A DNA stretch of 59,738 bases from NCBI GenBank assembly GCA_016213735.1, contig JACQZU010000006.1, forward strand, positions 1 to 59,738. The letters are read 5' to 3'. Positions within the stretch are counted from its first letter, which is position 1, and each line of letters begins with the position of its first letter. The position numbers and the translations under genes were made by a program. The notes beneath the pieces were generated by a model that saw only the letters and a program-made list of their open reading frames with translations, ran no database searches and was not told where the DNA came from. Of this stretch, positions 54,337 through 59,738 are shown in pieces. The DNA is from Acidobacteriota bacterium. GTDB taxonomy: Bacteria > Acidobacteriota > Holophagae > Holophagales > Holophagaceae.

Positions 54337-55044
54337 CGGCGTGGAAGGGGACGGGACGCCTCCGCCCCGACGGAGCGCAGAGCGCGGGGGCCCAGGCCAC
54401 CCCTGGACGCCGTTTGCCCCCACGGAGCAACACCAGCGAAGGCGCGGCTCCGCCGCGACGGAGCGCGGGGTGTGGGGGCCCAGGCGGCCCTTGGCCGCCG
54501 TTTGCCCCCACGGAGCAGAACAAGCGAACGAGCGGCTCCGCCGCGAAGGAGCGCGGGGTGTGGGGGCCCAGGCGGCCCCTGGCCGCCGTTTGCCCCCACG
54601 GAGCAACACCAGCGAACGAGCGGCTCCGCCGCGAAGGAGCGCGGGGTGTGGGGGCCCAGGCGGCCCCTGGCCGCCGTTTGCCCCCACGGAGCAACACCAG
54701 CGAACGAGCGGCTCCGCCGCGACGGAGCGCGGGGTGTGGGGGCCCAGGCGGCCCCTGGCCGCCGTTTGCCCCCACGGAGCAACACCAGCGAACGAGCGGC
54801 TCCGCCGCGAGGGAGCGCGGGGTGTGGGGGCCCAGGCCACCCCTGGCCGCCGTTTGCCCCCACGGAACAGAACAAGCGAACGAGCGGCTCCGCCGCGAGG
54901 GAGCGCGGGGTGCGGGGGCCCAGGCCACCCCTGGACGCCGTTTGCCCCCACGGAGCAACACCAGCGAAGGCGCGGCTCCGCCGCGACGGAGCGCGGGGTG
55001 TGAGGGCCCAGGCGGCCCTTGGCCGCCGTTTGCCCCCACGGAGC
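54337..55044. repeat. Array of eight 88-bp tandem repeats with internal stem-loops
   Basis: The word TTTGCCCCCACGG recurs at 54413, 54501, 54589, 54677, 54765, 54853, 54941 and 55029, always 88 bp apart. Each unit can form an outer stem (GCCCCCAC with GTGGGGGC, for example 54416-54423 with 54472-54479) around an inner hairpin (GCTCCG-N6-CGGAGC, 54447-54464). Most copies have a second hairpin (GGCGGCC-N3-GGCCGCC, 54483-54499). The array fills the gap between add and the Fur-family gene and touches the latter's stop. Function unknown. Confidence 0.92.
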
Positions 55045-55045
55045 A

Positions 55046-57535: not shown

Positions 57536-57835
57536 GCCTCAGGGTACGGGAACCCGGCCCGTCCCCGGGGCCCGGCGGTCCAGCCTTCGGGTCCGAAGTC
57601 GCGGCGGGTTCTCCCGCCGGGCGAGGGGCTTCGCCCTGCCCCGAACGCCAAGTCCGGTCCCCGGCCGGTCCCCCACCGGTAGCTCCACCCCCCCGGACGA
57701 TCCCCTGCCCCTCTGCTCCGGGACCCCGGAGAGGCACGGCGCGATTCCGGGGCCCCCGCGGCCGCGCCCCCGTCCGTCCTTTTCCGGTCTGCCTAAGGGG
57801 TTCGTTCATGTTTCCCCTTTACTCGTCCCACGGAC
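57536..57835. other. Non-coding GC-rich spacer before the integron junction
   Basis: No gene is supported here. Several short GC-rich hairpins are present, for example GGGCGA-N6-TCGCCC. No integrase gene or recognisable remnant is visible in the place where one is normally found next to attI. Confidence 0.5.
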
Positions 57836-58047
57836 CGCCTAATTCTTTAGGAAGCCAACGGACCTCCGGGGCACCATCCAGAACGGAATCAAAACATGTC
57901 GCCTGGCTTCCGCCTTCCAAGCACCCCTCCCAGTTCGCCTAATTCCCCCCGGACCCGAACCGGATCCGCCCCGGAATCCCTCCCCCAACCCCCCGCATTA
58001 GGCGTACTCGCCCCCACCCGGGGCCGTCGTCTAATTCAAAGTTAGGA
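57836..58047 (+). other. attI-like integron recombination site
   Basis: The decamer CGYCTAATTC occurs three times (57836-57845, 57936-57945, 58028-58037). The last copy runs into CAAAGTTAGGA, which closely matches the core of integron attI sites (CTAAAACAAAGTTAGG in class 1). The crossover point lies between G58041 and T58042. The first cassette begins there. The repeats could be integrase-binding sites. A -35/-10 pair for a cassette promoter is only faint (TTTACT at 57818, TAATTC at 57840). Confidence 0.6.
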
Positions 58048-58055
58048 GGTCACTC

Positions 58056-58787
58056 TTGCCCCTCCCTGAAAGTGAGAGAATAAAATTCTTTGTATTCGTC
58101 ATTGAGTCGCCTTCCGCAGTTGATCTTTATCACCGTCGGAGTGAAGGAGACATCATCAGGCAAGCTGTCAATTTAAACGGGATACCCTGTTACCTTCTAA
58201 CCGCTATAAATATTGAAGCTTTTGAAGCTGCTCTTAGGATTGGGTTACCTGAAGCAATGGAAGCCAACCCTGGACGGGTACCAATTCTTCATATTAGTGC
58301 GCATGGATTTCAAGAAGGGATTCAGCTATCCAATTCAGAAATTCTCTTATGGGCTCGATTAAGACAACTATTATTGCCTATAAATAAAGAGCTTAGTAAC
58401 GCCCTCCTGGTTTGCCTTTCGAGTTGCGAAGGATACGCAGGAACCAGAATGGCAATGTATATTGAAGACGATGGCTATCCATTTTTTGCACTCATTGCGA
58501 ATGCAGAAAAACCTCTATGGTCAGAAACAGCTATTGCATACTCAACTTTTTATCATTGGCTTGCTCGAGGCGAATATGTTTTGCATGCCCTTGATGCAAT
58601 GCGCGTAGCTTCAGGGAATAAAACATTCTTTGCAGAGATGGCGCATGAATCACGACAAGGATATATTAATTATATTCAATCGCTTAACGCTGAAGCTATT
58701 CAGACAAATCTTGAAAAACAAGCGGTCAATGATCAATCAGGCAATTCAATAAAGTTGCGTAAATATGGTCTCAATCAGCCCTCCTAA
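58056..58787 (+). CDS. Caspase/CHAT-like cysteine peptidase (cassette 1)
   Basis: The 243-aa protein has the layout of clan CD peptidases. A hydrophobic strand ends in the catalytic-type His (ILHISAHG, His83); 40 residues on, a second strand ends in the catalytic-type Cys (LLVCLSSCEG, Cys124). There is no signal peptide or membrane span. CHAT and caspase-like proteins act in cell-death and anti-phage systems; that role is inferred. The TTG start is set by an AGGAGG six bases upstream, inside the cassette core. Codon use is AT-rich, unlike the chromosome. Confidence 0.75.
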   Translation: MPLPESERIKFFVFVIESPSAVDLYHRRSEGDIIRQAVNLNGIPCYLLTAINIEAFEAALRIGLPEAMEANPGRVPILHISAHGFQEGIQLSNSEILLWARLRQLLLPINKELSNALLVCLSSCEGYAGTRMAMYIEDDGYPFFALIANAEKPLWSETAIAYSTFYHWLARGEYVLHALDAMRVASGNKTFFAEMAHESRQGYINYIQSLNAEAIQTNLEKQAVNDQSGNSIKLRKYGLNQPS

Positions 58788-58904
58788 CCAATCGTTCAAC
58801 TCGGACCCAGCCGCTACGGCCCACCATGCTCTCTCTTGCCCATGTCCCCCGTCTTTGTTTCGCGTCCGGCCTGCGGCTGGGCCGGTTAACTTGTTTCGTT
58901 AGGC
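58782..58904 (+). repeat. attC site of cassette 1
   Basis: This 123-bp site runs from R'' TCCTAAC (58782-58788, overlapping the stop codon of the peptidase gene) to R' GTTAGGC (58898-58904). The inner arms 58794-58814 and 58873-58890 pair (CAGCCGC with GCGGCTG, and GTT...AAC ends) with unpaired bases on one side, as attC folding requires. Confidence 0.88.
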
Positions 58905-58911
58905 GACCAGT

Positions 58912-59163
58912 ATGCTTTTACTTGAAGATCCACGAAATCAAGTTTTTGGAAATCTGGGTCTCTCCATGTTTTATGCTCTTGCAATGCCGCTACTCGGAAT
59001 TTATTTAATAGGATGTTTTAAAAATGGTTACATGCCCTTTCAATCTTATAAAATCCATCGCCGAACGAGGCCTTTATTGTTCTGGCTGTTGGCTTCGCTA
59101 TCCTCAGGGATAATTCTTTTCTTAACTATTGTGGCTGTTTCACCAATTTGGGCCATTAAATGA
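58912..59163 (+). CDS. Small two-helix membrane protein (cassette 2)
   Basis: The 83-aa product has two hydrophobic segments (about residues 16-34 and 56-77) separated by a basic loop (NGYMPFQSYKIHRRTRP). No family is recognised. It starts 8 bp after the attC R' core of the preceding cassette, with no clear ribosome site, so translation may depend on an upstream message. The composition is AT-rich. Confidence 0.62.
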   Translation: MLLLEDPRNQVFGNLGLSMFYALAMPLLGIYLIGCFKNGYMPFQSYKIHRRTRPLLFWLLASLSSGIILFLTIVAVSPIWAIK

Positions 59164-59175
59164 TTCTATTCTATC

Positions 59176-59301
59176 GCCTAACACCTCGTTCAACCCGGCC
59201 CCAGCCGCAATCATCTCCCAGGCTCCCGTGATCGCTCCAGATTTCTCGTCCCCATTCCTCGTCCGGCCTGCGGCTGGGCCGGTTAACTTTTTCCGTTAGG
59301 C
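59176..59301 (+). repeat. attC site of cassette 2
   Basis: This 126-bp site runs from R'' GCCTAAC (59176-59182) to R' GTTAGGC (59295-59301). The inner arms at 59188-59209 and 59269-59287 pair over about 18 positions (CCAGCCGCA with TGCGGCTGG). It is nearly identical to the other two sites except in the apical part. Confidence 0.9.
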
Positions 59302-59310
59302 GCTTCAACC

Positions 59311-59565
59311 ATGAACCAGGAACTCTTCAACAAAGCCGTTGAACACAATCGCGAGAGCCGAAAAGTGCTCCGTTGGCTTTCCCTTGTTGGGCTTCTCGCT
59401 GTACTCGCTGGGGTGCTTCTTGTCGTTCGCCCCTATGGAATCAATTGGCCCTGGTCCGCATTCATGCCGGAATTTCTTTATTCACGGTTGGCTCAGTCTT
59501 TAATCATTCTTGGCCTGCTCATGATTTTTTTATTCATCAAATCGTTATTCACAAGAAGGCACTAA
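59311..59565 (+). CDS. Small two-helix membrane protein (cassette 3)
   Basis: The 84-aa product has a charged N-terminus (MNQELFNKAVEHNRESRK) and two spans (about residues 22-40 and 58-78). A short loop with WPWSAFMPEF joins them, and the tail is basic. No family is recognised; it is not a sequence relative of the cassette 2 protein as far as I can read. It starts 9 bp after the attC core. Confidence 0.62.
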   Translation: MNQELFNKAVEHNRESRKVLRWLSLVGLLAVLAGVLLVVRPYGINWPWSAFMPEFLYSRLAQSLIILGLLMIFLFIKSLFTRRH

Positions 59566-59571
59566 CATTGC

Positions 59572-59695
59572 GCCTAACATTGCGTTCAACCCGGACCCAG
59601 CAGCCTGTGTTTTCCGCGCTCTTTCGTGGGCGTGAATCCTCGTCTCTGTTCATGGTCCGGCTTGCGGCTGGGCCGGTTAACTTTTTCCGTTAGGC
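59572..59695 (+). repeat. attC site of cassette 3
   Basis: This 124-bp site has R'' GCCTAAC at 59572-59578 and R' GTTAGGC at 59689-59695. The inner arms are at 59584-59605 and 59663-59681. Its right arm is the same as in the other two sites; the left arm differs at one base (CAGCAGC). Confidence 0.88.
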
Positions 59696-59738
59696 GTCAT
59701 CGCACAGGAAATTGGTTGCATCTCTTTCGAGGACCAAC
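59696..59738 (+). mobile_element. Start of cassette 4 (truncated by window edge)
   Basis: After the R' core the sequence continues 43 bp without a recognisable start codon in context. It shows that the array goes on beyond the window. Confidence 0.6.

Follow-up and report, generated by a model that had tools for sequence, protein, structure and literature searches.

A predicted stand-alone CHAT-fold cysteine protease carried as the first cassette of an integrase-less integron platform in an Acidobacteriota genome

The window, that is, the whole analyzed stretch of 59,738 nucleotides of an Acidobacteriota genome, ended with an integron attI region and an array of gene cassettes, the first of which contained the gene of a predicted cysteine protease; the coordinates of these features are collected in Table 1. 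The contig terminated within the cassette array at position 59738. The TTG start codon of the protease gene lined up with the ATG of its relatives in the sequence alignment. The Shine–Dalgarno motif was located at the junction of attI and the cassette; the corresponding point of the other attI of the genome, on contig C3, reads GTTAGGTG.

Table 1. Positions of the integron platform, the protease gene, and the following cassettes in the window.
Feature	Position	Strand	Remarks
intI 5'-end remnant	57756..57809	-	~18 codons; MNEPLRQTGKGRTG... vs MADLVRQTGEGRTG... of intact IntI
Integron attI region, second copy in the genome	57756..58046	+	291 bp, 86% identical to C3:32147-32437
attI recombination point GTTAGG	58041-58046	+	directly before the protease ORF
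Shine–Dalgarno AGGAGG	58044..58049	+	at the attI/cassette junction GTTAGGAGG; 6 bases 5' of TTG
Stand-alone CHAT/caspase-fold cysteine protease gene (predicted)	58056..58787	+	243 aa, TTG start
Presumed catalytic His83 codon (HISAHG)	58302..58304	+	same residue in all 14 aligned rows; His motif in 24/24 sequences
Presumed catalytic Cys124 codon (SSCEG)	58425..58427	+	same residue in all 14 aligned rows; Cys motif in 24/24 sequences
attC of the protease cassette	58783..58905	+	direct-repeat family; bottom-strand fold z -2.95
Second cassette ORF	58912..59163	+	hydrophobic product of 83 aa, unmatched in Pfam
attC of the second cassette	59176..59301	+	direct-repeat family
Third cassette ORF	59311..59565	+	hydrophobic product of 84 aa; nothing in Pfam above cut-off
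attC of the third cassette	59572..59695	+	direct-repeat family

The segment of contig C3 homologous to the attI region of the window (L033) is the stretch between an intact intI and its first cassette. Homology to the attI/intI region of C3 ended in blastn at position 57756, and the remainder of intI was gone there. The sole integron integrase of the genome above the family cut-off was encoded on contig C3 (453.7 bits). The integron of this genome is split: the second platform, found in the window, is integrase-less, and the intact intI is on C3. Since intI was lost at the window platform, further recombination at its attI would require IntI in trans. The attI homology ends before the protease ORF, and the protease cassette therefore occupies position one at the attI of the second platform; an attC array without attI was ruled out by the attI copy at 57756-58046. 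A single ORF followed by an attC of the host integron type and inserted at attI corresponds to an integron cassette, while the platform, with intI absent beside attI apart from the remnant, does not correspond to a complete integron. The preliminary description had placed the gene in the first cassette of an integron, and this position was borne out by attI directly 5' and attC 3' of the gene, the integrase gene itself being located on another contig.

Across seven contigs of this genome, more than 40 related attC sites or site fragments were found. The attC-bearing contigs include C6, C19, C22, C23, and C7 (L034-L038), several of which end inside arrays, and many of the cassette ORFs on them encode small hydrophobic or lipoprotein-like proteins. 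The Rfam scan of the window revealed no attC-type family. Position one beside attI is the expressed position of an integron according to a review (PMC12409362), and by analogy with integron biology high expression would be expected for the first cassette. A search of the + strand of the attI region revealed no sigma-70-like promoter.

The G+C content of the protease gene was 0.413 versus 0.686 for window bases 1-57500, and the gene was absent from all 59 related genomes. This composition (41% vs. 69%) and this absence indicate that the gene is horizontally acquired, and a native, vertically inherited gene was ruled out on the same grounds. Within the genus Polynucleobacter, the gene was present in 2 of the 186 genomes; the two copies differed with a dN of 0.041 and a dS of 0.92 (dN/dS ~0.04 for this one species pair). 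The best-supported reading is a stand-alone, horizontally spread CHAT-fold protease that selection keeps functional, purifying selection being seen in this one species pair. The reading frame of the window gene was intact, and, given also the dN/dS of the Polynucleobacter pair, the gene is therefore not a pseudogene.

The ORF contains His83 and Cys124, the two residues that the preliminary description had named (in ISAHG and LSSCEG, respectively) as a pair with clan CD spacing. Both are invariant in the 14 aligned sequences, and both motifs recurred throughout the 24 sequences, at identities as low as ~27%, so their occurrence by chance was ruled out. In two plasmid-borne relatives the cysteine motif reads SSCSV or SSCDV. 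Other invariant or near-invariant positions of the 14-row alignment were E17, S18, S20, D23, E30, W99, C120, W155, Y166, and H167; the near-invariant W155 may presumably represent the substrate-pocket tryptophan of caspases. E17 and D23 are candidate residues of an S1 pocket for basic residues.

The Pfam CHAT profile (PF12770) matched the window protein with 25.5 bits, i.e., 1.5 bits above its gathering cut-off of 24, and no other domain above its own cut-off was found in the Pfam scan of the protein. The relatives mostly scored below the CHAT cut-off (12-13 bits) or had no match; for two phage-borne copies, Peptidase_C13 scored slightly above CHAT, yet under the Peptidase_C13 cut-off. Because the window protein passed so narrowly and most relatives were below the cut-off, sequence profiles alone leave the family unsettled. 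Nothing meaningful was retrieved for the protease from the PDB by sequence, profile search included, and thus only the fold comparison was informative.

An AlphaFold2 model built from a 10-sequence alignment (pLDDT 86.7, pTM 0.81) was used, which replaced a poor earlier model from 7 sequences (pLDDT 62). The modelled protease consists of one domain and a C-terminal helix, with His83 after strand 3 and Cys124 after strand 4, in caspase-like order. The highest hydropathy in a 19-residue window was 1.2, and no transmembrane segment was found in the protein by hydropathy, in agreement with the compact protein without accessory domain described previously. In the Foldseek search against the PDB, the top five matches were to the SAVED-CHAT filament (E 1e-7); caspase-4, legumain, and the GPI transamidase subunit came next. 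The second structural comparison gave a Z score of 16.1 for SAVED-CHAT (rmsd 2.9 over 170 residues) and ~13 for caspases and legumains. The predicted fold, the dyad, and its conservation thus uphold the assignment to clan CD/CHAT peptidases; neither of the two outcomes named beforehand as counter-evidence, a fold unrelated to clan CD or a lack of conservation of both residues, was observed. The model supports the view that the product of the window gene is a compact cysteine endopeptidase of the CHAT fold (clan CD), built as a single domain, in which H83 and C124 form the dyad.

The close relatives, with 52-58% identity, were encoded in a proteobacterial MAG, Dyella, a planctomycete MAG, Gallionella, and two Polynucleobacter genomes. 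The proteobacterial MAG copy (L002) was found among same-strand small ORFs ending in attC-like palindromes, a setting that is likely a second cassette array. The planctomycete copy (L059) was located within the tail module of a prophage, just 3' of a tail-tip J gene, and the Polynucleobacter copies (L056 and L057) were within integrase-bearing islands, one of them adjoining a tRNA. The copy L003 was flanked by housekeeping genes, and L065 followed a RelE/ParE-like ORF, recognized by eye and not by profile. Three phage contigs with the protease gene were found in IMG/VR: a T7-like podophage (L051), where a head-tail connector gene was near the protease gene and the latter was on the strand opposite to its neighbors, a low-GC contig, and a temperate phage (L052), where the protease gene adjoins the integrase. 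None of the INPHARED phages matched the window protein, two phage-borne relatives, or the Salmonella plasmid member, and PHROGs gave only phrog_38219 (function unknown) at weak scores. That stand-alone CHAT-fold proteases are carried on mobile elements is well supported by these contexts. The 24-row tree resolved few forks and served for grouping only.

In both Polynucleobacter islands, a conserved 91-aa ORF lies 30 bp 3' of the protease gene (L056:13288-14330, L057:6640-7683); it contains Cys pairs (ECPxCF...CHTC), has no Pfam match, and is a candidate partner. The Gallionella copy (L005:4849-7771) is situated between arnB-like and arnC-like genes of the lipid A operon, these names being assigned by eye.

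Relatives of ~27-32% identity, or reached only by profile, are referred to here as distant. They were found on Salmonella and Vibrio plasmids, the majority being chromosomal. Several had genes of defense systems in their surroundings: LmuB and GajA-like genes (Lamassu/Gabija-like) nearby, with an HNH gene next to the protease gene; SspB/SspC, with the protease gene directly after a NucS-like nuclease gene; adjoining SIR2 proteins; and CARF, PRTase-CE, and NADAR genes. These neighbors are suggestive of a defense role for the wider family. The pattern was absent in the close family, whose members were located outside classical defense islands.

Several of the distant loci are described separately. 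A distant relative was carried by 6 of the 5,426 complete genomes of E. coli. The three loci inspected (L095-L097) had it in an integrative island, between dinD and yicC or nearby, and the island cargo varied (a restriction endonuclease in one strain, an integrase, an S8 peptidase with an AAA ATPase). A genome of the planctomycete group has a distant CHAT gene (L078:3619-8686) inside a type I restriction operon, between hsdR and hsdS, where the start and stop codons of adjacent genes overlap. For two distant CHAT genes (L063:7901-10444 and L088:7482-9041), the gene immediately before encodes a PD-(D/E)XK-like nuclease, which matched CARF4-PDDEXK (27.7 bits) and NucS_C (28 bits), respectively.

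Well-studied bacterial caspase-like defense proteases mostly rely on large sensor domains or CRISPR complexes. The best structural match, the type III CRISPR-associated SAVED-CHAT (PDB 8tl0; 16% identity over the 170 superimposed residues), differs from the window protein in this respect: the latter has no SAVED domain, no cyclic-nucleotide binding part, and no CRISPR locus, and its residues 9-198 correspond to the protease alone. The 243-aa single domain in a cassette context thus falls outside both SAVED-CHAT and TPR-CHAT. Csx29 of Craspase (TPR-CHAT, type III-E CRISPR) has the dyad H615/C658 with a spacing of 43 residues and E659 next to the cysteine (PMC10028731), which resembles the 41-residue spacing of H83/C124 and E125 after the cysteine in the window protein; however, the TPR domain, Cas7-11, the Csx30 substrate, and the sigma factor are all missing at the window gene. 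Borvo (BovA), a CHAT-domain anti-phage system annotated as one gene (PMC10952713, PMC12322248), whose escape mutations map to the phage DNA polymerase (PMC11348598), is similar as a one-gene CHAT protein, BovA being compared by its description. The caspase-nuclease (canu) systems include a clan CD protease in phage defense (PMC12799240). The distant relatives L063 and L088, directly following their nuclease genes, are possibly nuclease-protease pairs resembling canu, whereas the window gene has neither a nuclease partner nor an Ig-like domain; its cassette neighbors encode small hydrophobic proteins, and no nuclease was found among the cassettes of the window.

Phage-defense cassettes have been shown experimentally in chromosomal and mobile integrons of Vibrio (Darracq 2025 and Kieffer 2025, as reviewed in PMC12409362). 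The protease cassette resembles them as a single small ORF with attC in position one beside attI; no CHAT protease cassette is named in the passages of the review consulted. Defense by CHAT proteins (Borvo) and defense cassettes borne by integrons are thus already known from these sources. The newer part is a minimal sensor-less CHAT protease that is moved by integrons and phages and has no match in PADLOC-DB, where the window protein was searched up to E 10; its relatives had no PADLOC match at convincing scores.

The preliminary description had further proposed a defense or cell-death effector. This proposal stood in part: the fold relatives, the mobile contexts, and the defense neighbors of distant relatives make it plausible, while the PADLOC result and the location of the close relatives speak against it. 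By analogy, the gene would most likely have an anti-phage or cell-death role. An antiviral role is suggested because the nearest structural kin are controlled by CRISPR, a CHAT protein defends as one annotated gene in Borvo, and integron cassettes carry defense genes. On balance, we lean towards the reading that the gene is a horizontally acquired one-gene CHAT protease, carried as cargo by cassettes, phages, plasmids, and islands, and acting as an antiviral or cell-death effector.

For such an effector, we infer a proteolytic activity, a trigger, a substrate, and an antiviral outcome, which could be connected in the following way. The protease would be made yet held inactive. It would directly sense a component of a phage or another invader, or the damage from the invader, perhaps via the conserved N-terminal ESPSxxDLYxxRSEG segment of the family; its conservation suggests that this segment, which follows strand 1, could build the substrate pocket or a sensing surface. 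Upon sensing, the active site would be realigned, and the protease would make a specific cut in a single protein, or in a few proteins, of the host or the phage. Growth would thereby halt or the infected cell would die, which would favor the resident mobile element and the clone. If this is true, the 240-residue cassette-borne protease would be among the smallest possible immune or suicide devices of the caspase type, and phages and integrons would be shown to share such a gene. Its small size makes expression and testing simple, and the protease is a concrete candidate, testable with mutants, in the current search for immune genes among integron cassettes.

A bolder version, which we hold only tentatively, is that a minimal sensor-less CHAT family, absent from the catalogs, constitutes a complete one-protein immune system, with sensor and executioner in ~200 residues; it would be exchanged between cassettes, phages, and plasmids, and its deeper branches would recruit PD-(D/E)XK nucleases or restriction enzymes.

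The main rival to the defense reading, in our opinion rather unlikely, is that the protease serves mobile elements as a weapon or shield against each other or the host, as a phage moron or counter-defense gene cleaving a host immune protein or a protein of a competitor, and was later captured into cassettes. The copies on the opposite strand of the T7-like podophage, by the integrase of the temperate phage, on the other phage contig, and in the prophage tail module would suit such a gene, and the three IMG/VR contigs fit it as well as they fit defense; the gene is also rare everywhere, like accessory genes. However, the majority of the distant relatives are encoded on chromosomes, and several of them have defense genes next to them; moreover, superinfection exclusion itself counts as defense, so the two readings overlap.

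Somewhat less probable again is a role unrelated to phage infection, the gene encoding a protease for regulation or stress or acting as a toxin-like addiction gene, and having spread passively as cargo of cassettes and islands. Consistent with it, the protease gene has neither a sensor domain nor a substrate gene linked to it, and copies occur in the arn operon (L005), amid housekeeping genes (L003), and after the RelE/ParE-like ORF (L065); against it, conflict genes typically show such a patchy distribution over phyla and phages, and several neighbors of the distant relatives are defense genes. Finally, a catalytically dead CHAT-fold adaptor or sensor is highly improbable, given the retention of His and Cys in 24/24 sequences to ~27% identity and the near-invariance of W155.

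Apart from the integron platform, the window contains 7.8 tandem copies of an 88-bp unit (92% matches) at positions 54360-55045, directly 5' of an adenosine deaminase-like gene.
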